A stretch of DNA of 64,000 nt from Bacteroidota bacterium (GCA_025963725.1 JAOQAE010000003.1:1-64000); one strand, 5' to 3'; positions 9,279 to 55,315 are shown, counted from the first letter of the stretch. Notes: generated from the letters alone by a model not told the origin. Translations and numbers: made by a program.

Positions 9279-9599
9279 TCAAAAAAGTTCGAGGCCAATG
9301 ATGCCTGCAATGATCAGTAAAATGGAAACCACCTTCGCCACTGAAACGGGCTCATGGAAAAACACGATCCCTATCGCAGCGATCAACGCTGTTCCTGCGC
9401 TTGCCCAGATAGCGTATGCAATGCTCACCTCATATTTCTCCAGCACAAGCACGAGCAGCCCGAGGCTTGCGCCGTAAAAAACAAAAACGAGAACGGAAGG
9501 CCAGAGCTTTGTAAAGCCTTCTGCGTATTTCATGCAAACGGTGCCCAGCACTTCAAAAATGATCCCCAATGCAAGGTAGATCCAGTAAATATTTTTCAT
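9279..9599 (-). CDS. SMR-family small multidrug/cation efflux protein
   Basis: The 106-residue protein has four predicted transmembrane helices. Glu16 in the first helix corresponds to the essential EmrE Glu14, and the AYAIWASAG loop is typical of small multidrug resistance pumps. The WAS context looks more like the Qac/EmrE branch than the guanidinium (Gdx) branch, but I would not fix the substrate. It is the first gene of a two-gene unit with the downstream SDR and has a good promoter at 9697-9729. Confidence 0.9.
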   Translation of the reverse strand: MKNIYWIYLALGIIFEVLGTVCMKYAEGFTKLWPSVLVFVFYGASLGLLVLVLEKYEVSIAYAIWASAGTALIAAIGIVFFHEPVSVAKVVSILLIIAGIIGLELF

Positions 9600-9696
9600 C
9601 CGAAAAGTTTAATTCGCTAAATGCTCATTTATGAGGAAGGATCTGTTTTTTGAGTAATGCCGACCTTAAAAACGCGATTTCATGTTCTTTCGGGGG

Positions 9697-9729
9697 CAAA
9701 TTTAGGAAATTTACCGGATGTTGAGCAAA
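9697..9729 (-). promoter_or_regulatory. promoter of the SMR/SDR unit
   Basis: On the minus strand TTTG (complement of 9726-9729) is followed after 21 nt by TAAATTTG (complement of 9697-9704), both matching the Bacteroidota consensus. The leader would be about 90 nt. Confidence 0.65.
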
Positions 9730-9787
9730 GTATAGATCATGAGGCGTTTTAAGGGCTTTTATATTCCCTCCGCTGCCTGCTTTTTGT

Positions 9788-9795
9788 TACTTTTG
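9788..9795 (+). promoter_or_regulatory. -7 element immediately upstream of the acyltransferase start
   Basis: TACTTTTG matches TAnnTTTG exactly and ends 6 nt before the in-frame ATG at 9802, so transcription could start at or beside the start codon. No clear -33 box is present. Confidence 0.45.
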
Positions 9796-9801
9796 CAATG
9801 C

Positions 9802-10551
9802 ATGAAGTATTTGCTGATCCTGCCGCGTACACTTTGGAAAATACTTTTCCTGCTCAATTTTGTGCTGGGGCTGATCATCCTGTATCCTTTCTTTTATATC
9901 CTGCTTTCACAACGTAAATGGTTCCCGCTTGCCTTCCGGCTGAAAAAATTCTGGGCGGCCTGGATCATGACGGTTCCGGGGCTGTTCCTCAACGTTAAAC
10001 GGAAAGTCCCGAAAGAGAAACTTCCGCAGCCCGCGGTATATTGCGGCAACCACGTTTCTTACCTCGATATTATCGCCAGCTACCTCGTGATCCCGAATTA
10101 CTATGTGTTCATGGGCAAACAGGAGCTGGATAAAGCGCCTTTGTTCCGGATCTTCTTTAAGGAGATGAACATCCTTGTAGACCGTAAAAGCAATATCGGC
10201 TCACACCGCGCCTTCATGCGGGCGGGCGCCGATCTCGACAAAGGCGACAGCGTATTCCTGTTCCCGGAAGGCACCATTTCAAGCTTTGGGAAATTAAGGG
10301 GATTCAAGAATGGCGCATTCAAGCTGGCGATTGAAAAGCAGGTGCCGATCGTTCCGGTGATCTTCCTCAACAACTGGAAAATGCTGCAGAACGGCGGGTT
10401 CCTGAAAGCGCATGGCAGGCCGGGCATCAGCAAGATAGTGGTTCATGAGCCGATCCCTACCCTTGGCATGACTGAGAAGGATTTAGTATCTTTGCGCACG
10501 AAGGTGTATGATGTGATACAGGCGGAGCTGGAGAAGCATAATAAACAATAA
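9802..10551 (+). CDS. plsC: 1-acyl-sn-glycerol-3-phosphate acyltransferase (PlsC family)
   Basis: PlsC acylates lysophosphatidic acid at the inner membrane to make phosphatidic acid. The 249-residue product has an N-terminal hydrophobic segment, the NHVSYLD motif (HX4D, catalytic), an FPEGTIS block that binds the glycerol phosphate, and IPIVPVIF near the end of the core domain. The frame is open back to 9739, but the first 21 codons of that longer form cover a TACTTTTG promoter element, so the ATG at 9802 is preferred. Specificity for LPA over another lysolipid or ornithine lipid cannot be read from sequence. Confidence 0.9.
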   Translation: MKYLLILPRTLWKILFLLNFVLGLIILYPFFYILLSQRKWFPLAFRLKKFWAAWIMTVPGLFLNVKRKVPKEKLPQPAVYCGNHVSYLDIIASYLVIPNYYVFMGKQELDKAPLFRIFFKEMNILVDRKSNIGSHRAFMRAGADLDKGDSVFLFPEGTISSFGKLRGFKNGAFKLAIEKQVPIVPVIFLNNWKMLQNGGFLKAHGRPGISKIVVHEPIPTLGMTEKDLVSLRTKVYDVIQAELEKHNKQ

Positions 10552-10574
10552 TTTTTTATACGGCATTTGCGGGT

Positions 10575-10610
10575 GGTCATTTCGAGTACGAACGAAGTGA
10601 GTGTATCAAG
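10575..10610. repeat. copy of a dispersed GTCA(G/T)TTCGAG repeat
   Basis: GGTCATTTCGAG and the following segment match the ends of longer inverted repeats at 34055, 40097 and 41483. This copy sits between plsC and gatC and appears to be a solo end. Confidence 0.5.
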
Positions 10611-10648
10611 AAAGCGGGCCGGCCAACGCACAATAACATTCGGTAACA

Positions 10649-10945
10649 ATGAAAATAGATAAAGACACAGTAGATAAGATAGCGCACCTGGCGCGGCTGG
10701 AATTTGAGAATGAAGCTGCAAAAGAAGCGATGATCAAGGACATGAACAACATGCTTGGGTTTATCGACAAGCTGAACGAGCTCGACACGAACAATGTGGA
10801 GCCGCTGATCTACATGAGCGAAGAAGTGAACGTGCTGCGCGAGGATGAAGTGAAAGTGGAGATCACCCAGCAGGAAGCATTGAAGAATGCACCGAAAAAG
10901 GATTCGGATTATTTCAAGGTGCCGAAGGTAATGGGGAAAAATTAA
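10649..10945 (+). CDS. gatC: Asp/Glu-tRNA amidotransferase subunit C
   Basis: GatC is the small subunit of GatCAB, which converts misacylated Glu-tRNA-Gln or Asp-tRNA-Asn to the correct aminoacyl-tRNA. The 98-residue length, the opening IDKDTVDKIAHLARLEF, the centre MLGFIDKLNELDT and the ending DYFKVPKVM are all typical of the family. gatA and gatB are not in this window, as is common in Bacteroidota. Confidence 0.95.
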   Translation: MKIDKDTVDKIAHLARLEFENEAAKEAMIKDMNNMLGFIDKLNELDTNNVEPLIYMSEEVNVLREDEVKVEITQQEALKNAPKKDSDYFKVPKVMGKN

Positions 10946-11000
10946 TAGCAAGGGCTATGCGTGTATTTACGCAAAATAATGGGTAAAAACACCCAATTTA

Positions 11001-11273
11001 CTAATACCTGAAATTGAGGATTTCAGCCAGCGGAACGTTAAATCCTATGGCGATCTTCAGCATTGTTGAAAGCCGGACATCTGTCCCCTCTGTGCAGAGC
11101 TTATAAACCTGCGCTTTATCCATTTCACAGGCATCAGCCATCTCCTGGAATGATAAATTACGATCTTTCCTGAGCTGATCTATATGAGTTGCAAATGCCT
11201 TCCTGATTTTCGTCTGTTCTGACACATCATAATATTCCCATTTTTTTTGTAACACGCCGTAGTAATTTAACAC
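11001..11273 (-). CDS. XRE-family helix-turn-helix regulator
   Basis: This small DNA-binding protein has a Cro/C1-type HTH (LRKDRNLSFQEMADACEMDKAQVYKLCTEG region) and the helix STMLKIAIGFNVPLAEIL that ends many XRE domains. The longest frame starts at GTG 11273 (90 residues). A second GTG at 11225 gives 74 residues beginning SEQTKIRKAF, closer to normal XRE length, and would leave the palindrome at 11258-11277 outside the coding region. It is divergent from two small hypothetical genes, suggesting it regulates them and itself. Confidence 0.82.
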   Translation of the reverse strand: MLNYYGVLQKKWEYYDVSEQTKIRKAFATHIDQLRKDRNLSFQEMADACEMDKAQVYKLCTEGTDVRLSTMLKIAIGFNVPLAEILNFRY

Positions 11274-11277
11274 TACG
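11258..11277. promoter_or_regulatory. candidate operator in the XRE/hypothetical divergent region
   Basis: CGTAGT and ACTACG form a 6-bp dyad with an 8-nt AT-rich spacer. It lies upstream of the +strand promoter at 11290 and at the 5' end of the XRE gene, a usual place for an autoregulatory XRE site. Confidence 0.4.
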
Positions 11278-11289
11278 ATTTAAAATTTT

Positions 11290-11297
11290 TATATTTG
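11290..11297 (+). promoter_or_regulatory. -7 element upstream of the 112-residue gene
   Basis: TATATTTG is a perfect TAnnTTTG box ending 5 nt before the ATG at 11303, so the mRNA may be leaderless or nearly so. No TTTG is visible at the -33 distance. Confidence 0.5.
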
Positions 11298-11302
11298 CAG
11301 GC

Positions 11303-11641
11303 ATGCAATTGCCCTCACTTGAATTGTTAGAAGCCGTTTTTAAAAGGCTCCGGTACTGTAAGGACCGGGAAAAACGTATTAACGATCTTCTCAAGGAATT
11401 GTCAGTTACAGGTATTACCTTTACCCATGAGCAAGAAATACAATCCTGTCTCATTAATGTACTGGAAGATGCCTTCGACGACAAAGACGGCCTGATCGAA
11501 TGGTACATTGCAGAGAATAATTTTGGACGCAATAATTTGTCCCGGGATGTAAACGGCAAAAAAACAGCAATTGAAACCGTTGAGCAGCTGCACGGGATCT
11601 TAGTCACATCCTACGCGCAGAGAACTGCGGGACACTATTAG
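11303..11641 (+). CDS. hypothetical protein, small accessory type
   Basis: The 112-residue product has a basic helical N-terminus and a C-terminal segment (LIEWYIAENNFGRNNL then TVEQLHGIL). This resembles small acidic proteins of unknown function common in phages and accessory regions; that family impression is from memory only. It has no signal peptide or membrane segment. It is transcribed divergently from an XRE regulator, with its own promoter, and is followed after 14 nt by another hypothetical gene. Confidence 0.6.
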   Translation: MQLPSLELLEAVFKRLRYCKDREKRINDLLKELSVTGITFTHEQEIQSCLINVLEDAFDDKDGLIEWYIAENNFGRNNLSRDVNGKKTAIETVEQLHGILVTSYAQRTAGHY

Positions 11642-11655
11642 TTACAAAATTCTTC

Positions 11656-12033
11656 ATGAGCAACCTTTCGATCGGATTGGCCTACAAGGCCGTATTTACC
11701 TATTTAAAGCATTACTGGCAGCAGCATCAGGACGAAGACGATCTGGGCGGATTGCTGAACGCGATGGATCCCTTTTTATGGAAGGACGGCTCTCCGGCTG
11801 ATAAAACAGTGGTTAAGGATTTTATCGACATCGTAAAAGGGATCAGCATCTCGAAGGATGAGGTTGAGCTTAACGAAGGCTTCGGAATTATGATAAACTA
11901 CCTGGAGAAGCAGCTCGACTGGCTGAGGCTGGAAACGATAATAGACCGGCTAAAGATCATTTACAGCGAGCAAAGCCCGGAAGAATGGGCTTACTGGACA
12001 ACCAACTGGCTTCAGACCACCGACCGGGATTAG
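11656..12033 (+). CDS. hypothetical protein, second gene of the XRE-linked pair
   Basis: This 125-residue soluble protein is rich in acidic and aromatic residues (DEDDLGGLLNAMDPFLWKDG near 26-45, WAYWTTNW near the end). I do not recognise the family with certainty. The compact acidic character and an LGGLL...D...PAD pattern recall immunity-type proteins of polymorphic toxins, but no toxin is adjacent. It lies 14 nt after the 112-residue gene, so the two probably form one transcript. Confidence 0.58.
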   Translation: MSNLSIGLAYKAVFTYLKHYWQQHQDEDDLGGLLNAMDPFLWKDGSPADKTVVKDFIDIVKGISISKDEVELNEGFGIMINYLEKQLDWLRLETIIDRLKIIYSEQSPEEWAYWTTNWLQTTDRD

Positions 12034-12082
12034 CGAAGCCAGCCTTTTCCCACTATCTCCTGCTATCTCTAAAACATCTGCA

Positions 12083-12937
12083 ATGAAAAAAACAATCCTG
12101 CTTGCCCTGTTGCTCTGCATCTCAGCTGCGAAAGCCCAAATCACCCTGGAGCATACGTATGACACGGCCTCTGTAAGTTCAGCGGCATTTATACCAGCCC
12201 AGCTGATGATCGTGGATTTTGAAGCCTCGGGACAACGGTATGTAAAAATAAACAGGGACCAGAAGCAAATTCAAATCTATACCATGGGGCATGCACTAAC
12301 GAAAGTTATTTCGTACTCGGCGTTCCCACAGGCTTGCAACAACCTTCCCTATGTGCTTTACTTGTCTGAACGCTTATTCGATCCTGATCCTGATATTGAG
12401 TTCATGTATATTGCAACAAATTGTTCCGGTACTACTTCAACCTATATCTATAAAGAAAACGGCACCTTACTTTTCTCTGCCGTAGCAGCACCGCTGATCA
12501 TGTCAACTATTGAACTGCAGCAATACCCCATTTACAATACAAATCAGGGAACAAAAATGATCCTGAGCTTCAGCGACGGAACCGCAAAGGTATATAGCCT
12601 GCCGGGTGTCCTTCCCTGCACCAGCCCGTGTAATTCCAGCGCTGCGACAGGGATTCACAATGGAGGCATACTGCCGCCCGGCAATATGATCTCCAATCCT
12701 TATCCGAATCCCGCTTCCACAGCAACAACAATTGATTACAGCCTGCCGGAAAACATAAACGAAGGGGAAATTGTTTTTTATGACCTGCAGGGAAAAGAGA
12801 TCAAGCGGTTTAAAGTGGATAGAACGTTTTCTTCACTTGTAGTTTCAACAAGTGATATCGCAGCAGGCTCTTACTATTACCAGCTTCAGGTAAAGGGAAA
12901 TGCCAGCACTTCAAAAAAGCTGATCGTAATAAAATAA
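12083..12937 (+). CDS. secreted protein with T9SS C-terminal sorting domain
   Basis: This 284-residue exported protein has a signal peptide (about 1-18, ending AKAQ), a central beta-rich region of unknown fold with a Cys-rich patch (CTSPCNSS), and a type A T9SS sorting domain over the last 75 residues. That domain has the usual landmarks: NPYPNPAS, VFYDLQGKEI, and a final GSYYYQL...KKLIVIK. Such proteins cross the outer membrane by T9SS and are released or anchored. The function of the central part is not recognisable. It converges on hemB with only 12 nt between them. Confidence 0.82.
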   Translation: MKKTILLALLLCISAAKAQITLEHTYDTASVSSAAFIPAQLMIVDFEASGQRYVKINRDQKQIQIYTMGHALTKVISYSAFPQACNNLPYVLYLSERLFDPDPDIEFMYIATNCSGTTSTYIYKENGTLLFSAVAAPLIMSTIELQQYPIYNTNQGTKMILSFSDGTAKVYSLPGVLPCTSPCNSSAATGIHNGGILPPGNMISNPYPNPASTATTIDYSLPENINEGEIVFYDLQGKEIKRFKVDRTFSSLVVSTSDIAAGSYYYQLQVKGNASTSKKLIVIK

Positions 12938-12949
12938 CAGGAGGCCGGC

Positions 12950-13918
12950 TTACAGCCAGCCTTTTTCGAGGATGTCCTTCGTATGATACGTAATGATCAG
13001 GTTCGCCCCTGCCCTTGCGAAGGCATACATATTTTCCATTACGATCTTCTGCTCATCGATCCAGCCTTTTGCTGCGGCGGCTTTCACCATGGAGTACTCG
13101 CCGGAAACATTGTAGCAGGCAATTGGCAAAAGCGTATTCTGGCGCAGGTTAAAGATCACATCCATATAAGCCAAAGCCGGCTTCACCATCAGCACATCGG
13201 CGCCTTCCGCTTCATCCAGCAATCCTTCCGTCATCGATTCGTTCCCGTTCCTGAAATCCATCTGGTATGATTTACGGTCGCCCTTTTGCGGCGCAGAATC
13301 GGCAGCTTCACGGAAAGGCCCGTAATACGCCGAAGCATACTTGATCGAGTACGACATGATCGCAGTATTCTCAAAACCATTCTGATCGAGCAAGCCGCGC
13401 ATTGCGCCTATCCTGCCGTCCATCATATCGCTCGGCGCCACCATATCCGCACCGGCCTGCGCATGCGCCAGCGCCATTTTCGCAAGCACTTCCACCGACG
13501 AATCGTTGTGCACATAATCATCGTGAATGATCCCGCAATGTCCGTGCGTAGTGTAAGCACAAACGCATACATCGGTGATCACATAAAGGCTTTCGCCGAA
13601 CTTTTCTTTCAGCGCTTTTACAGCTTTCACAACCACCGAATTGTTGCTGAAGGAAGAAGAGGCATCTTCCGTTTTTTGCTCACCTACACCAAACAATAAG
13701 ATCTTATTGATGCCGGCCTTCAATCCCTTTTCAACATCCTTCAGCAGCTCATCCACCGAAAAGTGGCTAATGCCGGGCATTGCATCAATGGGATGAATTA
13801 TATTCTTTCCTTCCACCACAAAATACGGGTAGATGAACATGTCTTTCGACAATCTTGTTTCCGCCACCATTTCACGGATGATGGGGTTCTTTCTGAGTCT
13901 TCTTGGACGCTGTAACAT
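12950..13918 (-). CDS. hemB: delta-aminolevulinic acid dehydratase (porphobilinogen synthase)
   Basis: HemB condenses two 5-aminolevulinates into porphobilinogen in the cytoplasm. The 322-residue product has the family opening RPRRLRKN and the Zn-binding cysteines C118, C120 and C128 in the VCVCAYTTHGHCG block, so it is the zinc type. The two active-site lysines lie in SIKYASAYYGPF and LMVKPALAY. It is the last gene of the hemA-hemCD-hemB set on this strand, 70 bp after hemCD. Confidence 0.97.
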   Translation of the reverse strand: MLQRPRRLRKNPIIREMVAETRLSKDMFIYPYFVVEGKNIIHPIDAMPGISHFSVDELLKDVEKGLKAGINKILLFGVGEQKTEDASSSFSNNSVVVKAVKALKEKFGESLYVITDVCVCAYTTHGHCGIIHDDYVHNDSSVEVLAKMALAHAQAGADMVAPSDMMDGRIGAMRGLLDQNGFENTAIMSYSIKYASAYYGPFREAADSAPQKGDRKSYQMDFRNGNESMTEGLLDEAEGADVLMVKPALAYMDVIFNLRQNTLLPIACYNVSGEYSMVKAAAAKGWIDEQKIVMENMYAFARAGANLIITYHTKDILEKGWL

Positions 13919-13988
13919 GCTTTATTGTTTTACCGCAGAGAGCGCAAAGCAGGCGCAAAGGCTGCGGAGATTCGTAATATTCGTTTGA

Positions 13989-15560
13989 TTAGTTATTCGC
14001 AATCCCGAAAACGGCTTCCGCCAATCCCACCTCATCAAAGGATACCGGCAAAATGCAATTCTCTATTCCGAATGTCTTTAATTTTTTTTCTGTTGATGCA
14101 CCGATCGCGATCACTTTCTGATCCTGCTTCACTTTTCCCTTTTCGAAAAAGGATTCAACGTTGGAAGGGCTTGTAAACACAAGGATCTCCGCGGCAGGCA
14201 TTTCAGCATTTGTTTTCTTCACGGTTTCATACACCGCGAGGTCGCTCAGCTTGCTGCTGTCGTCAAACTGCTGCTGGATGGTCCTTAATCCGCCTTTCGC
14301 CTGCGGGAACAAAACGGTTTCTGCCCCGGCGGTCTTTGCGAATTTTTTGCCGACAACTTTTGTATCGTTCACGCTTCCTACAAATGCGGCATTGCGGTTA
14401 TATTTTTTCAGCGTGAGCTCCGTTGATTTTCCGATGACGCCAAATTTCACTTTCGGCTTCAGCTCAGGCTCCTGCTCAAAAAAGTGCTCGACGGCAGTGC
14501 TGCTTGCAAAGAAGATCCAGTCGGTAAGCGGTGCTTTGTCGAATTTTATTTTTTTCGTTTCAATGAAGGATACTCCATTTACGCTGTAACCACTGCCTTC
14601 CAGCGTTTTTTTAAAAAACGAATCCTCATTGAGATCGCGGGTGATCAGCACCGAAGCAGGCCTGATGGAATTAAGCTGATCAACAATTTTCTGTGCAAAG
14701 CCATCCGCCGTGAACGACTCACGGTAAATGCGCCTTGGCATGGCATCCCAGCTGTTAGATTTGGAAGCCCACACCTTGAATTTGTTATCTTCCTTGATGC
14801 AATAAGCGCCCAATGGAAGCTGGCAGCCGCCATCGAACAGGTTCAATATCTTGCGTTCAATGCCGATCGTACCTTCCACCTTTTCGGAATTCAGCTTGTG
14901 AACGTATTGGAATAATTCGTGGTCATCCTCGCGGATCTGCAGCGCAAGCACACCTTGTGCAGGTGCGGGAATGAATTCCTTCGGATCGAGGCGCAGCACC
15001 TTGAATTCGCTTAGATCGATGTGCAAACGCTCCACACCGGCATTCGCCAGCATGATCGCATCGTATTTTTTATCGCGTAATTTCTGGATGCGGGTCGGTA
15101 CATTGCCACGCAGGTCTTCAATTTTAGCATCGCCCCTGAATGCGAGCAACTGCGACTTGCGGCGCGCCGATGATGTTCCTACGATCGCATTTTTCTTAAA
15201 GGAGAACTTCAATGCATTGTCTACGCTTTCTTTCCTGATGAGGATCAGTTCCGCAGGGTCTTCCCTTTCGGAAACAGCAGCAATGATAAGCCCTTCCGGG
15301 GAAGTCGTCGGCAGGTCCTTATGTGAATGCACGGCAAGGTCGATCTCCTTGCTGATAAGTGCATCTTCAATCTCCTTCGTAAAGAACCCTTTCCCTTCAA
15401 GCTTGTCGAAGCTCAGGTCCTGCACTGCATCCCCTTTTGTTACAATGATCTTTATCTCGGCTGTAAGCCCCAGCTTTTGTATTTTACGCAGCACGTGGTT
15501 GGCCTGCCAGAGGGCAAGGTCGCTTCCGCGTGAGCCGATGATTATTTTCCTGTTTTCCAT
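13989..15560 (-). CDS. hemC: fused porphobilinogen deaminase / uroporphyrinogen-III synthase
   Basis: At 523 residues this is roughly HemC plus HemD. Residues 1 to about 300 are hydroxymethylbilane synthase: GSRGSDLALWQAN (9-21), HSHKDLPT (78-85), SSARRKSQL, and C246 in GGCQLPLGA, which binds the dipyrromethane cofactor. Residues from about 305 to the end (ASVLITRD...FASSTAVEHFF...VFTSPSNVESFF...AIGASTEKKL) match uroporphyrinogen-III synthase, HemD. One polypeptide would make and cyclise the linear tetrapyrrole, limiting release of unstable hydroxymethylbilane. No separate hemD is visible here. It lies between hemA and hemB on the same strand. Confidence 0.92.
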   Translation of the reverse strand: MENRKIIIGSRGSDLALWQANHVLRKIQKLGLTAEIKIIVTKGDAVQDLSFDKLEGKGFFTKEIEDALISKEIDLAVHSHKDLPTTSPEGLIIAAVSEREDPAELILIRKESVDNALKFSFKKNAIVGTSSARRKSQLLAFRGDAKIEDLRGNVPTRIQKLRDKKYDAIMLANAGVERLHIDLSEFKVLRLDPKEFIPAPAQGVLALQIREDDHELFQYVHKLNSEKVEGTIGIERKILNLFDGGCQLPLGAYCIKEDNKFKVWASKSNSWDAMPRRIYRESFTADGFAQKIVDQLNSIRPASVLITRDLNEDSFFKKTLEGSGYSVNGVSFIETKKIKFDKAPLTDWIFFASSTAVEHFFEQEPELKPKVKFGVIGKSTELTLKKYNRNAAFVGSVNDTKVVGKKFAKTAGAETVLFPQAKGGLRTIQQQFDDSSKLSDLAVYETVKKTNAEMPAAEILVFTSPSNVESFFEKGKVKQDQKVIAIGASTEKKLKTFGIENCILPVSFDEVGLAEAVFGIANN

Positions 15561-15600
15561 AGTTGTTGTTCGTAATGACTTCTGCTTTCTTTAAATAAAA

Positions 15601-15626
15601 AACCCTCTGTTGAAAGAGGGATTTTT
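15601..15626 (-). terminator. hairpin between hemA and hemCD
   Basis: CCCTCT (15603-15608) pairs with AGAGGG (15615-15620), with A-rich sequence on one side and T-rich on the other. On the minus strand it follows the hemA stop closely and is followed by a T-rich tract, so it may end or attenuate transcription between hemA and hemCD. Confidence 0.5.
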
Positions 15627-15634
15627 AAGAGGTC

Positions 15635-16930
15635 CTATTTTATTTTAGCATCCTCGATCAAAATATCTTTTGCCATCTTCATCGGCACACTGATGTATTT
15701 TTTCTCCATATAGGCAATGATCTTTTCCAGCACTTCCTTCGAGCCGGCATCCATGCTGCTGAGCTCTTTGGCAAACACTTCATTGATGGCCACTTCGCGG
15801 ATCTCCTTTACTTTCCTCGGCACTTCGCTCATGGCGAGCTCCACGCGGCGTGTTTTCAGCGTTTGGCGGAACAGCTCTATGTTCTTCGCGATGATCACAC
15901 GGCAGGCTTCCATTTCCTGCTCACGCGCCAGTAAATTCTCCTTCGCCACTTCCTGCAGGTTATTCACCGCGATCAGGTTCACATCGTAATTGTTGAGGAT
16001 CTCTGCATCGAGGTCGTTCGGGATGGCAAGGTCGATCACCACTTTTTTCGAGCGGTCGTCGCCCACGAGGTTCTTATAGATCGCAGGTGTGATCACGCTT
16101 TCGGCAGCGCCGGTGCAGGTGAGGATAATATCGAAGCCTTCTTTATAATTTGGTAATTCCGATAAAGGAAAAGCTTTTCCGTTAAGTTCTTTCGCCAGTA
16201 TTTGGGCATTTTCGAGCGTACGGTTGAAAACCGTAAAATTGGCAAACCTGTGCTTTTTCAGGTATTTTGCCATATTGGTGTTTGTAACGCCGGATCCGAT
16301 GATCAGGAAGCGTGCGTCGAGCTTTACATTGAGGGCGCGCAGCTTGCGGTAAGCAAGGGAAACCACTGAAACAGGGTTACGGGCGATATTGGTATGGGTA
16401 TAGACTTCCTTTGCAACTTCAATGGTGCTTTTGATCGCCAGGCGGATAAGGTCGCCGGTAAGACCGAGCTCATTGCATTTTTCATAGGCATTGCGCACCT
16501 GGGTGATGATCTCGCGCTCGCCCACAACAAGTGAATCGATGGAGGATGCAACGCTGTACAGGTGCTCCAGTGCGGCATCGCCTTCAAAAACACGTGCATT
16601 TTCAAGGCACCAGCCGATCTCGGCAGGTGTAAAGGCCGGATCAAATGCGGTAAAGAACTGCAAGAGGAATGCGCTGTTGATCGCTTTTCCTGTGGAAAGC
16701 ATGAATTCCACGCGGTTGCAGGTCGACAGGTAAAAGAGTTCCTCAATGGCCATGGAGCTTTTTAAGCTCTCAAGGCGCGGTTTTAAAGCGCTTTCGTCAA
16801 TATGAAACTTGCCGATATCATTAATATCAGTAGTTTTGTGGGTAAATGCTATGATCTTGATCCTGTTCAACGGCGTTTGCGTTCTTTTTACATTTACAAA
16901 GTTGCGATTTCCGGGAGTTTTAATTGTCAT
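15635..16930 (-). CDS. hemA: glutamyl-tRNA reductase
   Basis: HemA reduces Glu-tRNA-Glu to glutamate-1-semialdehyde, the first committed step of C5-pathway haem synthesis. The 431-residue product shows LSTCNRVEF with catalytic C71, the SLVVGEREIITQVRNAY block, an NADPH-binding IGSGVTNTNMAKYL region, and a C-terminal dimerisation helix. Length is typical. It heads the haem gene set with hemCD and hemB; hemL is not in the window. The first 20 residues precede the usual family start, so a later start is possible. Confidence 0.97.
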   Translation of the reverse strand: MTIKTPGNRNFVNVKRTQTPLNRIKIIAFTHKTTDINDIGKFHIDESALKPRLESLKSSMAIEELFYLSTCNRVEFMLSTGKAINSAFLLQFFTAFDPAFTPAEIGWCLENARVFEGDAALEHLYSVASSIDSLVVGEREIITQVRNAYEKCNELGLTGDLIRLAIKSTIEVAKEVYTHTNIARNPVSVVSLAYRKLRALNVKLDARFLIIGSGVTNTNMAKYLKKHRFANFTVFNRTLENAQILAKELNGKAFPLSELPNYKEGFDIILTCTGAAESVITPAIYKNLVGDDRSKKVVIDLAIPNDLDAEILNNYDVNLIAVNNLQEVAKENLLAREQEMEACRVIIAKNIELFRQTLKTRRVELAMSEVPRKVKEIREVAINEVFAKELSSMDAGSKEVLEKIIAYMEKKYISVPMKMAKDILIEDAKIK

Positions 16931-16980
16931 ACTATTGTCAGATATGGTATTTAGAGTGTTTCTAAAGAGAGTTCAAATCG

Positions 16981-17128
16981 AAAACCACCCCTAACCCCTC
17001 CTGGGAGGAGGGGAACGGATAGTGCTACCATTAACTTCCTGCTTTTGAGAAGCAAGTTGACACATCGGGAGCTGCTTTAGGCTTTGTGCAGGATCAGCTC
17101 CCTCCTTTCAGGAGGGTTGGGGTGGTTT
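16981..17128. repeat. MITE-like element with about 30-bp imperfect inverted ends
   Basis: The left end (16981-17013) begins AAAACCACCCCTAACCCCTC. The right end (about 17098-17128), read in complement, begins AAACCACCCCAACCCTCC. Each end is itself a small G/C hairpin. The 148-bp unit has no coding frame and looks like a non-autonomous repeat. A related solo end is at 32945-32980. Confidence 0.6.
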
Positions 17129-17237
17129 GTGTCAGCTTAAACAACAGGCGCCAGATCGGCACAAACAGGCCGGGATCGCAAAAAGCATTAAAAAACACCT
17201 CTTTCTCCTTCATTTTCAACAATAAAATGTTAATTAT

Positions 17238-17268
17238 TTTGCAGAAAGTAAAAAAGTGCTTATCTTCG
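17238..17268 (+). promoter_or_regulatory. promoter of rplM-rpsI
   Basis: TTTG at 17238-17241, 19 nt, then TATCTTCG at 17261-17268 (one mismatch to TAnnTTTG). The leader to the GTG start would be about 55 nt. Confidence 0.6.
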
Positions 17269-17326
17269 CGTCCCATTTTTAGAGAAAAGTGGAATATTAA
17301 AGTGTAAAATTTAATACATAAATAAA

Positions 17327-17782
17327 GTGGAAGCAATTAGTTACAAAACAGTTTCAGCAAGCAAAGAAACTGTAACAAAAGGTTGGATTTTGATCGATGC
17401 AGAAAACGAAGTATTAGGTCGTTTAGCGTCTAAAGTAGCGTACATTGTACGTGGCAAGAACAAAACAAACTTCACTCCTCATGTGGATACCGGCGACAAC
17501 GTGATCATCATCAACGCTGAAAAGGTAAAGCTGACAGGAAACAAATTAAATGATAAAGAATACGTTCGTCACACCGGCCACCCGGGCGGACAGCGTTTCG
17601 CAACTCCAAAGGAATTACTGGCGAAAAAGCCAACTGAAGTAATTACAATGGCAGTAAGCGGCATGTTACCTAAGAACAAATTAGGTGATGCTTTAAGGCG
17701 CAATGTATACGTGTATGCAGGCCCTGAGCATCCTCACACCGCACAGCAACCAAAAGAAATCAAATTAAATTCAATTAAATAA
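17327..17782 (+). CDS. rplM: 50S ribosomal protein L13
   Basis: This is a structural protein of the large ribosomal subunit. The 151-residue product carries the L13 core WILIDAENEVLGRLASKVA, HTGHPGG, and AVSGMLPKNKLGDALRRNVYVYAGPEHPH. The start is a GTG at 17327, giving the SYKTVSA opening shared by Bacteroidota L13; no ATG fits better. rpsI follows after 4 nt, the usual rplM-rpsI operon. Codon use is AT-richer than neighbouring metabolic genes, as expected for high expression. Confidence 0.97.
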   Translation: MEAISYKTVSASKETVTKGWILIDAENEVLGRLASKVAYIVRGKNKTNFTPHVDTGDNVIIINAEKVKLTGNKLNDKEYVRHTGHPGGQRFATPKELLAKKPTEVITMAVSGMLPKNKLGDALRRNVYVYAGPEHPHTAQQPKEIKLNSIK

Positions 17783-48579: not shown

Positions 48580-48666
48580 GGAGAGGTGTCAGAGTGGCCG
48601 AACGAGCAAGCCTGGAAAGTTTGTATACTCGCAAGGGTATCGCGGGTTCGAATCCCGCCCTCTCCG
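48580..48666 (+). tRNA. tRNA-Ser (anticodon GGA)
   Basis: A complete 87-nt class II tRNA. The acceptor stem GGAGAGG (48580-48586) pairs with CCTCTCC (48659-48665), with discriminator G. The anticodon loop CTGGAAA has GGA at 48614-48616, and the T arm GCGGGTTCGAATCCCGC is perfect. The long variable arm and discriminator G are those of serine tRNAs. CCA is not encoded. Confidence 0.96.
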
Positions 48667-48739
48667 CTTTCATTCGCTGAAGCGAATTTCAGCGGACGCA
48701 GTCCGCAAAATCGCGAAAGCGAAAAATGAATGAACCAAG

Positions 48740-48824: not shown

Positions 48825-48911
48825 GAACGGAGTGCAGCGAAGTGAATGTTGCATTTTCCAAATGGGAGAAATGGGATCATTGAAAATAATCCCGCCCTCT
48901 CGGGCTGAAAG

Positions 48912-48987: not shown

Positions 48988-50046
48988 TCAAACCATTTTT
49001 AACCAGCGGTCGATCGTTTTCTTCGTTTTTCCGGTATTAAAAACTAAATCCGCCTGTTTTATTTTTTCATAGTCTGGCAGCGCAGCAATTGCAACTGCAT
49101 AATCTTTCATGAGTGATTTTTTGTATGAGTCGAAAGGTTGTGAAACATCGAATTTATTTGCAATTTCTATTTTTGTAGTCAAATTATATTTTTCAAAATC
49201 CGATTTTACCAAATCGAAAATTTCTTTTTCATTAACCGATTCAGGATGTTTAATATCAAAAACTGTTTTCCAATATGTCATCCATAAAATAGAAATTGTC
49301 TGAAGGTCGCGAAAATTGCCATCAAGCGGTAATCGGCTCAACCAACTAAAAAAGCTTTTTTCTTTGGGAGCTTTTATCCTGTCGTATCCTTTTGATTTAT
49401 GGAATTGCATTCCTTCCCAGACCAAAAGAAAATCTGTTTTTGCAGTTTCTCTTGTTTCGGAAATAGATGGAAGTTTTATAACAAGTTGAGCGATGCGATC
49501 ATAAAAATCCGGAAGCAGGGTGTCGTTTTTTAATTCAGATATTGTCCTGTTACTTCCGAAGATCGGTCGCACTTCCACGTAATGAATTGAATCCCCCATC
49601 ATTTTTCTAAATGAGAATTTTCCTTGTTGTCTACCACTACCAACTGTTTGCAAGGCAGTAAGCAACTTAGACTTAACACGGTCTTCTAAATGATGTACTT
49701 CATCAAGAAATAAAATACCCTTATCAGCTTGTTGCAAGAGTCCACTATGTCCTTTTGAATTAGCATCAGTAAAGGCGTGTGGCTCATATCCAAAAATATC
49801 AGCCTCCGCATTGTCATTATTAAACGAGGCGCAGGACGCTTCTATAAATGTATCAGTCTGTAAAACTCTTTCCTCTCTTAGAGCCTCGCTTATTTGTTTT
49901 ATCCATCTGGATTTCCCGGTTCCTCTTTCACCTATTACAAGAACAGAGAACCTTCCCGGATTAGACATAAAATAATAAAGCTTTTCTAAAGCTTTCTTTC
50001 TAAGTGGATGCTGATCCTTTATTTCATCTGAAAATTTTTTATTCAT
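48988..50046 (-). CDS. sigma-54-activator-like AAA+ protein with degenerate GAFTGA loop
   Basis: The 352-residue protein is built around an AAA+ domain of the enhancer-binding (NtrC/RtcR-like) kind: Walker A GERGTGKS (39-46), then a segment DIFGYEPHAFTDANSKGHSG in which GAFTGA is replaced by HAFTDA (90-95), Walker B ILFLDE (111-116), and a GSNRT sensor I-type region. The last 40 residues (KIKQADLVFNTGKTKKTIDRWLKM) look like a helix-turn-helix. The altered loop argues against sigma-54 contact. It is AT-rich and divergent from the GT/radical SAM operon, which it may regulate or work with. Confidence 0.8.
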   Translation of the reverse strand: MNKKFSDEIKDQHPLRKKALEKLYYFMSNPGRFSVLVIGERGTGKSRWIKQISEALREERVLQTDTFIEASCASFNNDNAEADIFGYEPHAFTDANSKGHSGLLQQADKGILFLDEVHHLEDRVKSKLLTALQTVGSGRQQGKFSFRKMMGDSIHYVEVRPIFGSNRTISELKNDTLLPDFYDRIAQLVIKLPSISETRETAKTDFLLVWEGMQFHKSKGYDRIKAPKEKSFFSWLSRLPLDGNFRDLQTISILWMTYWKTVFDIKHPESVNEKEIFDLVKSDFEKYNLTTKIEIANKFDVSQPFDSYKKSLMKDYAVAIAALPDYEKIKQADLVFNTGKTKKTIDRWLKMV

Positions 50047-50182
50047 ATTTTAAAGATATAAATTTCTTGTATAGAAGATAATATTTTCTCAACAAAAATG
50101 TAATACATTGAGCACCAGTTAATTACAATTAATTATTAAAACGGCATAGGTTGTGGAAGTAGCAGATAAAATAATTACAACC

Positions 50183-50482
50183 ATGACAAAACAACTTTTA
50201 GAATACCACAAGACCGACCACTTCATGTTGAGCCAATGGGATCGCGGTATTGGCGACGAACTTTTATACAAAGTCCTACCGTTTATATCCGAGGCAAAAG
50301 AAAATAAAAAAATAGCAATCTTTATCCCTTCTTTTCTAGGGACCAAAGGAATTGACGTACCGAAGAAGGATTGTTTAGTAATAGTATTAAAACAAAAATT
50401 ATTAAAAACAGCCTTTTGGTGCGATCATCCAAATTATTTATTCCTAAAAGAAAAAGATGCAGCCTTTCAAATCTTATATTAA
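50183..50482 (+). CDS. small hypothetical protein, first gene of the island operon
   Basis: The 99-residue product from the ATG at 50183 (a GTG at 50153 would add 10 residues) has no signal peptide or membrane segment. The N-terminal part is helical (TKQLLEYHKTDHFML), and a Lys-rich alternating region may be a small alpha/beta fold (KKIAIFIPSFLG, KKDCLVIVLKQ). No family was recognised. One nucleotide separates its stop from the start of the GT/radical SAM gene, so translation is probably coupled. It could be a small substrate, adaptor or accessory protein. Confidence 0.62.
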   Translation: MTKQLLEYHKTDHFMLSQWDRGIGDELLYKVLPFISEAKENKKIAIFIPSFLGTKGIDVPKKDCLVIVLKQKLLKTAFWCDHPNYLFLKEKDAAFQILY

Positions 50483-50483
50483 A

Positions 50484-52784
50484 ATGAAAATAATAAAAAT
50501 TATTCATGGGTATCCGCCCTTCTACAATGCAGGATCGGAAGTTTATAGTCAATCCATCTGCGAAGAGTTATCGAAAAACAATCAGGTATTTGTTTTTACG
50601 CGGGAGGAGAATCCATACTTACCGGATTTTACAATTCGTAAAGAACAAATAAATGAAAACCTTGTTATTTATTTAGCTAATATGGCGCAGGGAAAAGATG
50701 GCTTTCGACATAATGAATTGGATTTCATTTTCTCAAATTTATTAAATGAGATTCAACCTGATGTAGCTCACATAGGACATTTGAATCACCTCTCAACAGG
50801 ATTTGTAGATGTATTGAAAAGCAAAAACATACCAATTGTATTTACCCTGCATGATTTTTGGCTTATGTGTCCTCGCGGTCAGTTTCTACAAAGGAATTTC
50901 GGAAACCCAAATCACCATCAGTTGTGTGACAAACAAGAGAACACTAAATGTGCAACCAATTGTTATAATGCATATTTCACAGGGCAGGATGAAAACAAAG
51001 AGGCGGATGTTTCCTTTTGGAGTAACTGGATTGGAAATAGAATGCAGGAAACGAAAGATATCATAAATAAAGTGGATCTATTTATTGCTCCATCCAAGTA
51101 TTTGAAGAAGCGATATGTTGAAGAGTTTAGCGTGAAAGAAAATAAAATGTATTATTTAGATTATGGTTTTCCCCTGCAATATCTGAATCCGACCAAAAAA
51201 AAGGAAGATACAGAAGTCTTTACTTTTGGCTATATCGGAACGCATATTCCGGCCAAAGGAGTTAACATTTTAATTGAAGCCTTTTTAAAATTAAAAGGGC
51301 AAACATCTTTAAAAATATGGGGATGGAAAGATCAAAGAGCCACCAAAGAACTAATAGAAAAGGCAAAATCATTAGGACTGCCAATTGAATTTAGAGGAGA
51401 GTATGTTAATAAAAATCTCGCCGATGAAGTATTCTCTCAGGTAGATTGTATAGTTGTTCCTTCAATTTGGGGCGAGAACTCGCCATTAGTAATTCATGAG
51501 GCACAGGCTTGTCATATTCCCGTTATAACAGCTAACTATGGAGGGATGGCCGAATATGTTGAGCATAAAACAAATGGATTGTTATTCGAGCATCGAAGTT
51601 CAAACAGCCTATCAGAACAAATGCAGTGGGCAATTGAAAACAAAAGTAAGATGATTGACTTTGGAAAGAGAGGTTACTTGCTCTCGGAAAATGGCGGCGT
51701 ACCTGAAATAAAAGAGCATTGTAAGGAGTTGCAAAAGATTTATGAAGGAGTACAAAAGTCAAAAAACTCTCTTTGGCGAATTACAATAGATACAAATCCG
51801 GAAGATTGTAATTTGAGCTGTACAATGTGCGAGGAGCATAGTCAATTTAGTAAATACATTGATACCCTCTATAAGGAAACAGGAGTAAAGCGGAGGAGAA
51901 TGCCCATAGAATGGTTGGATAAAATATTCAGGCAAGCAAAAGAATTGGGAGTAAGAGAAATTATCCCTTCAACAATGGGAGAACCGCTTTTATACAAAGG
52001 AATTGAACGAATCTATGATTTAGCCAAAGAGAACCAAATAAAAATCAACTTAACAACGAATGGAACATTTCCTAAGAAGTCGGTTGTTGAATGGGCTAAG
52101 ATTATTGTGCCACAAACGAGCGATGTGAAAATATCCTGGAATGGATCAACCGCAGAAACATCTCAGGAAATAATGGTCGGAATTGATTTTGAAAAAGCTG
52201 TCGATAATGTTAAGCAGTTTGTTATGTACCGAAATCAACATTTCCAAAGTGGAGGCAATTATTGTCGCATAACATTTCAATTAACTTTTATGCAAAATAA
52301 TATGCATGAGTTGGCAGAAATTATAAAACTGGCTGCTCACCTTGATGTTGATCGTGTAAAAGGACATCATCTATGGGCGCACTTTGATGAAATAAAAAAA
52401 CTCTCCATGAAGGAAGATTCATCAAGTATAAAAAAATGGAATGCTTATGTTAAAGAGGCGTATGATGCAGTGGATAATCACCGAAGACCGAATGGGGAAA
52501 AAGTGTTGCTGGAGAATATTTATCCCCTTGAGGAGACAGAAAGAAAAGAAGTGCCGGAAAGTTATGACTGCCCATTCTTAAAGAAAGAAATATGGATTTC
52601 TGCTACCGGAAAAATATCACCTTGCTGTGCGCCTGATAAGAAGCGAGATAAATTGGGAGACTTTGGGAACATTCAGGATCAAACTCTACAAGAAATTATG
52701 TCCGGCAATTCATATCAAGGCCTTGTTACCAATTATAAAGATCAAGACCTATGTAAAACCTGTAATATGCGTAAATCATTATGA
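50484..52784 (+). CDS. GT4 glycosyltransferase fused to a radical SAM/SPASM enzyme
   Basis: The 766-residue product joins two enzymes. Residues 1 to about 415 are a GT-B fold, family-4-like glycosyltransferase: the opening KIIKIIHGYPPFYNAGSE, HDFWLMCPRG, a second Rossmann half with FGYIGTHIPAKGVNILIEAF, and E-x7-E in GENSPLVIHEA. Residues from about 430 are radical SAM: C-N-L-S-C-T-M-C (CX3CX2C), STMGEPLLYKG (GGE-like) and TTNGTF. SPASM-type cysteines follow near the C-terminus (YDCPF, SPCCAPDK, LCKTCNM). The fusion suggests that a sugar and a radical modification are placed on the same molecule. The upstream ATG at 50457 is less likely. Confidence 0.88.
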   Translation: MKIIKIIHGYPPFYNAGSEVYSQSICEELSKNNQVFVFTREENPYLPDFTIRKEQINENLVIYLANMAQGKDGFRHNELDFIFSNLLNEIQPDVAHIGHLNHLSTGFVDVLKSKNIPIVFTLHDFWLMCPRGQFLQRNFGNPNHHQLCDKQENTKCATNCYNAYFTGQDENKEADVSFWSNWIGNRMQETKDIINKVDLFIAPSKYLKKRYVEEFSVKENKMYYLDYGFPLQYLNPTKKKEDTEVFTFGYIGTHIPAKGVNILIEAFLKLKGQTSLKIWGWKDQRATKELIEKAKSLGLPIEFRGEYVNKNLADEVFSQVDCIVVPSIWGENSPLVIHEAQACHIPVITANYGGMAEYVEHKTNGLLFEHRSSNSLSEQMQWAIENKSKMIDFGKRGYLLSENGGVPEIKEHCKELQKIYEGVQKSKNSLWRITIDTNPEDCNLSCTMCEEHSQFSKYIDTLYKETGVKRRRMPIEWLDKIFRQAKELGVREIIPSTMGEPLLYKGIERIYDLAKENQIKINLTTNGTFPKKSVVEWAKIIVPQTSDVKISWNGSTAETSQEIMVGIDFEKAVDNVKQFVMYRNQHFQSGGNYCRITFQLTFMQNNMHELAEIIKLAAHLDVDRVKGHHLWAHFDEIKKLSMKEDSSSIKKWNAYVKEAYDAVDNHRRPNGEKVLLENIYPLEETERKEVPESYDCPFLKKEIWISATGKISPCCAPDKKRDKLGDFGNIQDQTLQEIMSGNSYQGLVTNYKDQDLCKTCNMRKSL

Positions 52785-53362
52785 AAATACTTGAAGAAAT
52801 AAAAATACATCCTGCAAACTCGAAGGTAGCAATGATTATCAGGCACGCAGATAGGGATAAAATACCAGATGGTTCTTTTGGAAATGAAATCCTACTTAAC
52901 AAAAAGGGAATTGACAATTCGATATTGCTTGGCAGAGACCTGAAAGAACATAAGATAAACCGCATCTTTACAAGCCCTGTTCCGAGGTGTGTTCAAACTG
53001 CGACATTTTTAAAAGAAGGGTATGGACAAAATGTAACATTCCATCATACAAAAGCTTTGGGTGATCCCGGGCTTCATATAGCAGATGATAAGTTAGCGGG
53101 AGAATTCTATTTAAAATACAGTTTTGATGAAATGTATAGAAGATTTATACTTGGAGAAACAATTCCCGGTGTGCCTTCTGCTCAAGAATTTGAAAAAATT
53201 ATGACGGAGTTTATTACACAAAATACAAATGAAAATGGATTAACTATTTTTATTACCCATGATTCTCTAATTGCTTTTTATCATTACTGTTTGAATAAAG
53301 TGGTTTATACAAAAGATAATTGGGTGAAATATTTATCCGGAATCATTTTAAAAATCGAATAA
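52781..53362 (+). CDS. histidine-phosphatase superfamily protein
   Basis: The 193-residue product has the branch-1 histidine phosphatase layout: R21-H22-A (phosphoacceptor His22) in IIRHADRD, SPVPRCVQTA with the second conserved Arg, and the late His in FITHDSLIAFYH. It probably removes phosphate from a small molecule or a sugar/peptide intermediate. Its start overlaps the GT/radical SAM stop (ATGA), and the WG-repeat gene follows 2 nt later, so it is embedded in the same translationally coupled operon. Confidence 0.85.
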   Translation: MKILEEIKIHPANSKVAMIIRHADRDKIPDGSFGNEILLNKKGIDNSILLGRDLKEHKINRIFTSPVPRCVQTATFLKEGYGQNVTFHHTKALGDPGLHIADDKLAGEFYLKYSFDEMYRRFILGETIPGVPSAQEFEKIMTEFITQNTNENGLTIFITHDSLIAFYHYCLNKVVYTKDNWVKYLSGIILKIE

Positions 53363-53364
53363 AC

Positions 53365-54066
53365 ATGAATTGGCAAGAAATAAAACTATCAGAGTGTGGT
53401 AAATTCTTTAGCTACCAGGGCGAGAAAGTGTTTAATAAAATATTTATCAGCGCACTCAAATTTCACACTCCGGGATTTGCACCTGTGCAGGAGGAAGAAG
53501 GTTGGTATCACATAAATATTAATGGATTGCAACTATATAAAGAACGGTACAAAAGAGCTTTTGGATTTTATTTCAACAGAGCAGCTGTAGTTGGCGAAGA
53601 TGGATGGTTTCACATTGATGATAAAGGGATAAGGCTATACAGCGATTGTTATGCATGGGTTGGTAATTACCAAGAAGACAAATGTATCGTACGTGATTTT
53701 AGCAACAACTATTTTCATATTAACCTTTCAGGGCGAAGGATCTATTCGGAGGAGTACTTTTATGCCGGAGATTATAAAGAAGGGTGCGCTTGTGTTAAAG
53801 GGATAGATGGCTGGAAACATATTAATTCGAGGGGAGAAGATCTTAACAATAAAAGGTTTGAAGATTTAGGTGTTTTTCATAAAAACTATGCTACTGCGAG
53901 AGATGAAGCGGGATGGTTTCACATTGATAAGAGAGGAGTTGCTTTATATCCTAACCGCTTTGCTTCTACTGAGCCCTTTTATAATGGATATAGTTTAGTT
54001 AAGGATTTTAATGGTAAAAAATGTATTATTACTGAGGCCGGAGATGTGGCTTTGGTAATTGCTTGA
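53365..54066 (+). CDS. WG-repeat protein
   Basis: The 233-residue protein consists mainly of about six WG/KWG-like repeats of roughly 35 residues (motif D-G-W-F/Y-H-I-x-x-x-G-x-x-L-Y, then a variable basic/aromatic segment). It has no signal peptide. WG repeats form beta-propeller-like or beta-rich scaffolds for binding; here they are unusually rich in His, Tyr and Trp. An in-frame ATG at 53320 lies inside the phosphatase gene, so the ATG at 53365 is used. As the last gene of the operon it could be the scaffold or substrate of the upstream enzymes. Confidence 0.82.
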   Translation: MNWQEIKLSECGKFFSYQGEKVFNKIFISALKFHTPGFAPVQEEEGWYHININGLQLYKERYKRAFGFYFNRAAVVGEDGWFHIDDKGIRLYSDCYAWVGNYQEDKCIVRDFSNNYFHINLSGRRIYSEEYFYAGDYKEGCACVKGIDGWKHINSRGEDLNNKRFEDLGVFHKNYATARDEAGWFHIDKRGVALYPNRFASTEPFYNGYSLVKDFNGKKCIITEAGDVALVIA

Positions 54067-54109: not shown

Positions 54110-54433
54110 TTATCGTATTGTTATACTCTTTGTCTGCTCACTTTGATTTTCTTTTTCACCAACGTACAGGATCACCTGGTAGGTTCCCGGCGAAGCGTAC
54201 GAATGCTGCACGGCTGCATTATCATTAGAATTTGCAGTGGCACCGTCTCCAAAATTCCAAAGAGAGTTTGTGTATCCCCCATCATAGTCGGAGCAATTCT
54301 GAAAGGTGATGATTTCGCTAGTATTGGCGGTAGGCTTGTCTATGGTGAAACAAGCCTTATACTTGTGCTTCTTGCTGCAACCGCAAAATAATAATATGAT
54401 TCCCATGATGATAATATATTTATATGATTTCAT
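54110..54433 (-). CDS. PKD-domain lipoprotein
   Basis: The 107-residue product has a lipoprotein signal (lipobox FCGC), then a single PKD-like beta-sandwich (ACFTIDKPTANTSEIITFQNCS, SLWNFGDG, HSYASPGTYQVIL). PKD domains mediate protein or polysaccharide binding outside the cell. Its start directly abuts the stop of the metzincin gene, so the two are co-transcribed and this may be a surface partner of that protease. Confidence 0.8.
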   Translation of the reverse strand: MKSYKYIIIMGIILLFCGCSKKHKYKACFTIDKPTANTSEIITFQNCSDYDGGYTNSLWNFGDGATANSNDNAAVQHSYASPGTYQVILYVGEKENQSEQTKSITIR

Positions 54434-55315
54434 TTATGTGAAAGTTATATATGGAGACTGCCTGAGGAAACAACATTGGGAACTGGTAAAATTATGTGCC
54501 GTAGCGCTAAATGAAGCATACATTATATTGTTAGGATTACTTGAGTGCGAAAGACCTAAAATATGCCCGATTTCATGAGCCATAATGGTGTCATCTGAAT
54601 TGGCTGTAGAATCAACCCGGCACCAGCTATCCCCCCAATAAGTACAACCGGAAGCCCCCGAAATTGAATCTACAAAAAAAACGGTTATTTGATTACAACA
54701 CCAACAGGCATTCGTACTAAACCAAACATGCCATGCAGAAAACAGTCCTCCAAATGAACAATTGGTCGATGTAAGATATGCAGGCTTAACCATATATGTA
54801 ATTCCAACTATAATAACTTCAACCTTGCACTGCTGATAAGCACTTATAGTTCTCTCTATGCTTTTCTTTATCGCCGTGGGATCAACCTTACTGTTTCCTG
54901 CTTCATCCGTCAAAACTTTAATGCAGATCCGCATTTTTTTCTTGGGACTTAAACTTAACTTGCAGAGCAGGAATGCCGGAATTCCAACAACAAAATTAAT
55001 TATGTAGCATATAATTCCGACCAGGTAAATAAGTAAAGTGATAATAAAGGTTAGAATGGTAATGATCGTGGTAATTATGGTATTGCATATATAATTCCAT
55101 ACCGTTTGGATCACAGTTATAACCTGGCTAACCCAATTGCACACTAAGTTCAAAGGCCAGGGTAACCAGCTACATACTTGTGACCAAACCGTTTGAAAGG
55201 TTGTTAATATGCTGCTGACCCAGCTGCAAACGGTTGTAATTACCTGCTGAATGAGAGGGATCAGCACCTGTAAGACTATATACAGGGGAAAGAGCATAAA
55301 CGTGCATATTATCAT
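54434..55315 (-). CDS. predicted membrane-anchored metzincin with Trp/Cys-rich hydrophobic N-terminus
   Basis: The C-terminal half of this 293-residue protein is a zinc metalloprotease domain: H247-E-I-G-H251-x5-H257 (HExxHxxGxxH) followed by the Met-turn NNIMY, as in matrixin-like metzincins. Cys residues are frequent (ACWCC, SGCTYWGDSWC), suggesting disulfides. The first 125 residues are very hydrophobic, with two Trp/Cys-rich copies of a pattern like VCxWVSxxxTxxQTVWxxxC around LPWPLNL, then further helices. This may be a membrane hairpin or an adhesive segment rather than a signal peptide. Substrate unknown. A PKD lipoprotein follows immediately. Confidence 0.75.
   Translation of the reverse strand: MIICTFMLFPLYIVLQVLIPLIQQVITTVCSWVSSILTTFQTVWSQVCSWLPWPLNLVCNWVSQVITVIQTVWNYICNTIITTIITILTFIITLLIYLVGIICYIINFVVGIPAFLLCKLSLSPKKKMRICIKVLTDEAGNSKVDPTAIKKSIERTISAYQQCKVEVIIVGITYMVKPAYLTSTNCSFGGLFSAWHVWFSTNACWCCNQITVFFVDSISGASGCTYWGDSWCRVDSTANSDDTIMAHEIGHILGLSHSSNPNNIMYASFSATAHNFTSSQCCFLRQSPYITFT

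Follow-up and report, generated by a model that had tools for sequence, protein, structure and literature searches.

A mobile GT4-radical-SAM-WG gene system of Bacteroidota with links to prokaryotic viperin operons and a possible role in chemical defence

The stretch of DNA analysed here (the window; 64,000 nt of Bacteroidota bacterium, GCA_025963725.1 JAOQAE010000003.1:1-64000) carries four tightly packed genes and a divergent AAA+ gene, which raises the question of whether these form a single system and what that system might do. ORF calls confirmed the gene positions of the original prediction: a minus-strand gene for a short-form AAA+ protein, an RtcR/PspF-like sigma-54-activator ATPase (48988..50046; 352 aa; PADLOC RtcR_PspF1, 2.9e-48), is followed on the plus strand by genes for a small protein, sm6, of a family found beside viperin genes too (50183..50482; 99 aa), a core enzyme consisting of a GT4 glycosyltransferase fused to a radical-SAM/SPASM domain (GT/rSAM; 50484..52784; 766 aa), a histidine phosphatase of branch 1 (HP; 52781..53362; 193 aa; His_Phos_1, 2e-8) and a WG-repeat, β-propeller-like partner protein (WG; 53365..54066; 233 aa). 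From the first to the last gene of the plus-strand operon, neighbours are 1 nt apart, overlap by 4 nt (ATGA) and are 2 nt apart. The domain assignments agreed with the domain search, WG_beta_rep being matched only below the cut-off (3.1e-4), and the AT-rich setting was likewise upheld, with a GC content of 34-37% in the system stretch against about 46-52% around it (about 48% for the window overall). The neighbouring tRNA-Ser(GGA) gene (48580..48667, plus strand) is a possible old integration point. A 14-nt exact repeat, AATCCCGCCCTCTC, of its 3' part (48651-48664) sits 237 nt downstream of the original (48888..48901, plus strand), a possible trace of integration in the form of an attachment-site remnant. 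Within the same AT-rich island, a PKD-domain lipoprotein and a matrixin-like metalloprotease are encoded on the minus strand (54110-55315); this pair was not seen as a recurrent family among the other GT/rSAM loci. Searched against PADLOC-DB 2.0, the window set corresponded to no catalogued anti-phage system, and HP, sm6 and WG were without any match; the AAA+ protein best matched RtcR-type CARF models and the radical-SAM domain weakly matched prokaryotic viperin (pVip).

When genomes were scanned with the fusion protein, 70 loci were recovered, nearly all from Bacteroidota, which share a common layout of GT4-radical-SAM/SPASM (fused or split), an exchangeable phosphatase, an optional O-methyltransferase (OMT) or carbamoyltransferase, and WG as the last gene. 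WG was found at 68 of 75 loci, and contig ends truncate many of the others. The reverse search with WG returned 16 positive genomes among 395 of the class, and of the 16 WG loci examined, 14 hold GT/rSAM in the cluster, one is truncated at a contig end and one has an orphan WG. Pairwise distances were correlated for GT-WG (ρ 0.84), GT-CARF-AAA (0.81), GT-MT (0.79) and GT-HP (0.78), values that are uncorrected for shared phylogeny, compared with permuted maxima of 0.35-0.64 (0.35 for GT-WG). Short AAA+ proteins without CARF showed no co-variation with the core (ρ 0.12-0.31) and were therefore probably swapped in. Locus L032 is close to the window in GT/rSAM and HP (about 92% identity) and in WG (90%) but shares only 28% in AAA+, and the small gene is missing; the same holds for L072, a genome of the same genus. 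In L001 and L037 the AAA+ is similar to that of the window (80%), but sm7 stands in place of sm6, and in L014 the AAA+ is kept (72%), yet a nucleotidyltransferase (NTase)/Tyr-phosphatase is present. Families are mixed in the GT/rSAM tree, where a fully supported group joins a Saprospiraceae MAG and Lutibacter; this pattern suggests that whole units were transferred. The co-occurrence and gene order that the original prediction had offered for checking were thus borne out, the layout being repeated in about 70 loci with co-varying distances, and the genes form a real, conserved, mobile and recurrent system. The proposed tRNA neighbourhood was not a general feature, a tRNA lying near only a minority of loci, and a comparison of sites beside folE within the genus yielded no usable empty site. 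The proposed defence-island setting was supported in part, by prophage cargo and linkage to viperin; enrichment of defence genes in the flanks was modest: the 100 flank proteins gave 84 PADLOC families and the 93 control proteins 29, a count of families and not of proteins. In three marine Flavobacteriaceae (L011, L019, L031), a McrC-like gene lies immediately upstream of the system.

The constant part of the system is GT4, radical SAM and WG. The window fusion matched Glycos_transf_1 (2.8e-27), Radical_SAM (1.1e-12) and SPASM (1.5e-10), with weak matches to models of peptide maturases and of the rSAM-linked glycosyltransferase TIGR04157, and it retains the GT4 catalytic pair (E331-x7-E339), the radical-SAM cysteines (C442-x3-C446-x2-C449) and the SPASM motif (C696-x13-G-x4-C). 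GT and rSAM are separate genes at many loci; in two MAGs (L058, L060) a minus-strand gene (429 aa) with no relation to them, a likely insertion, lies between the two. WG is the last core gene at nearly all loci. Its alignment holds 30 invariant columns across 32 loci, including an invariant His in several repeats, and the AlphaFold model of the window protein is predicted to be all-beta and propeller-like (pLDDT 96), a likeness to β-propellers that concerns the general fold only; that WG serves as a binding partner is a guess.

The phosphatase slot, between GT/rSAM and WG, is occupied by HP in 29 loci and by a Tyr-phosphatase, usually fused to the NTase, in 32, and a second His-phosphatase placed after WG substitutes in six. 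The use of three phosphatase types in one system suggests that phosphate must come off an intermediate, as it does in pathways whose GT4 enzyme uses a phosphorylated acceptor. OMT was found in 32 loci and carbamoyltransferase in six, and the optional nature of these two enzymes suggests the decoration of a small molecule. A larger cluster in L062 (about 6300-17460) contains a second radical-SAM-like protein together with HP, NTase, carbamoyltransferase and WG.

The AAA+ protein of the window is likely to be a regulator or sensor, as had been predicted, judging from the CARF-AAA+ and sigma-54 signatures of its relatives. Many of these are about 600 aa long, with an N-terminal CARF-like region, and best match RtcR-type CARF_AAA_HTH models; the CARF domain of RtcR senses or binds broken tRNA ends (PMC7790460). 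The divergent AAA+ gene often precedes the operon, and many loci are without an AAA+ gene nearby. TGGCAYR, the -24 element of sigma-54 promoters, was found upstream of the operon in 14 of the 20 loci with a GAFTGA-like AAA+ (shuffled-sequence expectation 0.24, maximum 3), in none of the 24 loci without AAA+ and in none of the nine with a short AAA+ lacking GAFTGA; four loci with a long CARF-type AAA+ but no exact GAFTGA motif still carried it. The window protein (Sigma54_activat, 6.2e-26) begins at the ATPase, without CARF, and ends in a short DNA-binding-like C-terminus. Its genome has two RpoN genes, but where relatives combine GAFTGA with TGGCAYR, the window has a loop altered to HAFTDA and, in the position corresponding to their TGGCAYR, a degenerate -24-like element (CGGCATA..., 50142..50159, plus strand) that is weak alone. 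The absence of CARF together with the degenerate loop and promoter element suggests that the window copy is differently triggered or partly decayed.

Viperin is a known antiviral enzyme, and true pVip genes were found between sm6 and GT/rSAM in L013 (Flavobacterium lacus) and L042 (PADLOC E 1e-82 to 3e-84) and beside GT/rSAM in L174 and L177, giving four viperin genes in such operons overall. In the 395-genome sample, pVip occurred in 12 genomes, and seven of the 12 pVip loci carried AAA+ (L174, L175, L177), sm6/sm7 (L166, L167, L170, L176, L177) or GT/rSAM (L174, L177). Locus L177 combines WG, CARF-AAA+, pVip, a cytidylate-kinase-like gene, GT, rSAM, NTase/phosphatase and carbamoyltransferase, and a -24 element, TGGCATAG, lies upstream of pVip in L174 and L175. 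WG and pVip shared a genome in four cases, where about 0.5 would be expected (Fisher p 7e-4, uncorrected for relatedness). Most GT/rSAM loci lack pVip. None was detected in the window's own genome at E<=1e-50, nor in the window, where the radical-SAM domain matches pVip weakly (1.1e-8), and the domain search placed no viperin-associated nucleotide kinase at the window locus. The pVip genes of L166, L167, L169 and L170 follow a histidine-kinase/response-regulator-like pair and not a CARF-AAA+ gene, which suggests a second type of viperin control.

The small proteins form part of this link, eight of the 11 loci recovered with sm6 adjoining pVip or GT/rSAM; sm6 and sm7 are absent from many GT/rSAM loci. 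Two of the three other sm6 loci adjoin a TauD-like gene pair, and the same pair follows pVip-sm7 in L167. It comprises a TauD-like dioxygenase and a 174-188-aa protein with the motif WHYHILDTRAY (beside sm6 or pVip-sm7 in L186, L187 and L167, there at 3968-5271) and is possibly a further viperin-linked cassette. A structure search with the predicted sm6 model (pLDDT 73) returned no meaningful fold match. The notion that sm6, sm7 and a DUF4258-like protein are one family was unsupported, hhalign giving a probability of 30% for sm6 against the DUF4258-like protein and 0.3% for sm6 against sm7. A RelE/DUF4258-like RNase is a possible identity for sm6; RelE and HicA toxins have been reported adjacent to viperins (PMC10865869).

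The system also travels on phages and plasmids. In prophage L125, an endolysin and a tyrosine integrase enclose AAA+, GT, rSAM, Tyr-phosphatase, O-methyltransferase and WG, and a phage contig (L124/L084; 66% GC, terminase present) carries GT/rSAM and WG only. In Wolbachia phage WO (L085) and in Arsenophonus plasmids (L086, L087), GT/rSAM is followed by WG fused to O-methyltransferase; the window and Undecim proteins share about 49% identity over the full length of GT/rSAM and about 44-48% in WG, the value for WG against phage WO being 43.7%. The phage WO genes belong to the Undecim cluster (WD0611-WD0621), in which UC3 is a GT/radical-SAM fusion and UC4 a WG-O-methyltransferase fusion (PMC9203015), and which is highly expressed and reportedly duplicated in one obligate Wolbachia strain (PMC12801941). 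Relatives of WD0613-WD0614 were described in 2015 as syntenic in Saprospira, Capnocytophaga, Haliangium and Desulfovibrio (PMC4701759). The original statement that no described system holds this set was therefore wrong or at least incomplete, as the GT/rSAM-WG core is that of UC3/UC4 (PMC9203015), with synteny already mentioned in 2015 (PMC4701759). In the part of the literature that was searched, no publication was found joining WG repeat, radical SAM and glycosyltransferase or linking pVip to RtcR, nor any published mention of the AAA+, promoter and viperin links of the GT/rSAM-WG system. The core is thus already known and named in Wolbachia; its free-living form, its control elements and the link to viperin are new here.

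Given the sensor, small protein and promoter common with viperin operons, and carriage by a prophage, which together suggest action during phage infection, our tentatively favoured hypothesis is that of a mobile, inducible chemical-defence cassette that, under stress, converts a phosphorylated precursor into a glycosylated, radical-modified small molecule, probably for use against phages. Both the chemistry and the defence role are inferred, not demonstrated. In many relatives, the divergent RtcR-kind CARF-AAA+-HTH protein, whose signatures are observed, would activate the operon from a sigma-54 promoter, and the trigger, by analogy with the CARF domain of RtcR, could be damaged RNA during infection; the window AAA+, with no CARF and a degenerate GAFTGA, may respond to another trigger or be in partial decay. 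Judging from the enzyme families, the GT4 domain would couple a sugar to a small phosphorylated acceptor and the radical-SAM/SPASM domain would remodel the product. The phosphatase would then strip the phosphate, as the replacement of one unrelated fold by another in its slot suggests, and the WG propeller, constantly paired with GT/rSAM, may bind substrate or enzymes. Where their genes are present, O-methyl- and carbamoyltransferases would yield locus-specific versions. The product most likely stops phage growth in the cell, parallel to or downstream of the modified nucleotides of the viperin type, to which the observed linkage points. Evidence from the window itself runs counter to this hypothesis, namely the absence of viperin and of CARF, the degenerate GAFTGA and the weak -24 element. 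The small share of GT/rSAM loci with pVip, the many loci lacking AAA+ nearby and the modest flank enrichment also speak against it. As for the conflict or defence role originally suggested, the single system, viperin linkage and prophage cargo were found, and defence itself is what we infer from them. A bolder form of the hypothesis, possible although doubtful, is a new class of phage defence in which the product of a CARF/sigma-54-controlled GT4-radical-SAM-WG pathway would be a nucleotide or sugar phosphate bearing glycosyl and radical modifications, formed as an alternative to viperin ddh-nucleotides or by modifying them further, and which phage WO and plasmids would also have brought to insect endosymbionts.

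Other explanations were weighed against the chemical-defence hypothesis. A chance neighbourhood of unrelated genes might be expected where genes turn over rapidly, as in an AT-rich island next to a tRNA, but the order is conserved over about 70 loci, phages and plasmids, and this, together with the co-varying distances and the reverse WG search (14/16), leaves chance with virtually no probability and rules it out. Modification of a surface glycan is unlikely but deserves more weight: as proposed for Undecim, GT4/rSAM would decorate lipopolysaccharide or exopolysaccharide and so change the receptors used by phages or the contact with the host. Surface-glycan pathways often include GT4 enzymes, Undecim has UDP-GlcNAc pyrophosphorylase-like, epimerase and UDP-glucose dehydrogenase genes (PMC9203015, PMC4701759), and a secreted or surface product would agree just as well with the Wolbachia version, which carries an ABC exporter and enzymes for sugar nucleotides. 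However, no flippase, polymerase or lipid-carrier transferase was found among the gene families that recur at the Bacteroidota loci, and the sensor and small protein are common to viperin operons, that is, to cytosolic nucleotide chemistry.

The original prediction had also named a radical-modified peptide, and a RiPP-like route in which a peptide, or WG itself, is the substrate of rSAM/SPASM and GT4 would accord with the frequency of SPASM domains in peptide maturases, with the weak matches to maturase models and TIGR04157, and with the strong conservation of WG, nearly always within the operon. No conserved precursor peptide was seen in the 75 loci, with ORFs of 60 aa or more covered systematically; the intergenic gaps leave no room for a precursor gene, and sm6/sm7 are missing from many loci. 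As a folded, propeller-like protein that carries a methyltransferase fusion in Wolbachia and Arsenophonus, WG is better explained as a partner domain, and phosphatases and carbamoyltransferases are unusual in RiPP pathways. We consider a peptide product rather improbable; no candidate precursor was found, and a small molecule would explain the tailoring enzymes and phosphatases no less well. Still less probable is a regulon for RNA or tRNA modification or repair under an RtcR-like activator, for which an RtcR-type CARF-AAA+ adjoining the operon in relatives and the sensing of broken tRNA by the RtcR CARF (PMC7790460) would speak, but the families of the system include no recognised rtcA/rtcB and no RNA-modifying enzyme of known type, and CARF is lost or AAA+ absent at many loci.

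If the chemical-defence hypothesis is true, an inducible route of chemical synthesis joins viperin in bacterial antiviral immunity, the system points to an undiscovered natural product, and a tractable free-living model becomes available for the highly expressed, unexplained Undecim genes of Wolbachia; the co-occurrence with viperin makes the defence question directly testable. Compared with known systems, relatives of the window system have the same CARF-AAA+, sm6/sm7 and TGGCAYR as pVip operons, and both are centred on a radical-SAM enzyme, but that of the window is of the SPASM type, fused to GT4 and only distantly pVip-like (1e-8), and a phosphatase replaces the nucleotide kinase. With RtcR/rtcBA regulation, the relatives share a CARF-AAA+-HTH activator and a sigma-54 promoter element, whereas rtcA/rtcB was not recognised among the system's families and the window AAA+ is without CARF. 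The Undecim cluster has the same GT4/rSAM fusion followed by the same WG family, with O-methyltransferase, and is likewise borne by phages or plasmids; it differs in being without the AAA+ regulator, phosphatase and sm6/sm7 and in adding an epimerase, a PhyH dioxygenase, an ABC exporter, threonine aldolases and a UDP-glucose dehydrogenase. In the window (47.9-55.3 kb, ORFs and domains), no OMT, PhyH, ABC exporter, threonine aldolase or UDP-glucose dehydrogenase was found. Biosynthesis of the aminoglycoside or nucleoside type draws on a similar toolbox of GT4, radical SAM, phosphatase, O-methyltransferase and carbamoyltransferase, to our knowledge with no WG partner; set beside such pathways as they are generally understood, the system described here is mobile, has no recognised export gene in its Bacteroidota loci, is controlled by a sensor and is far smaller.
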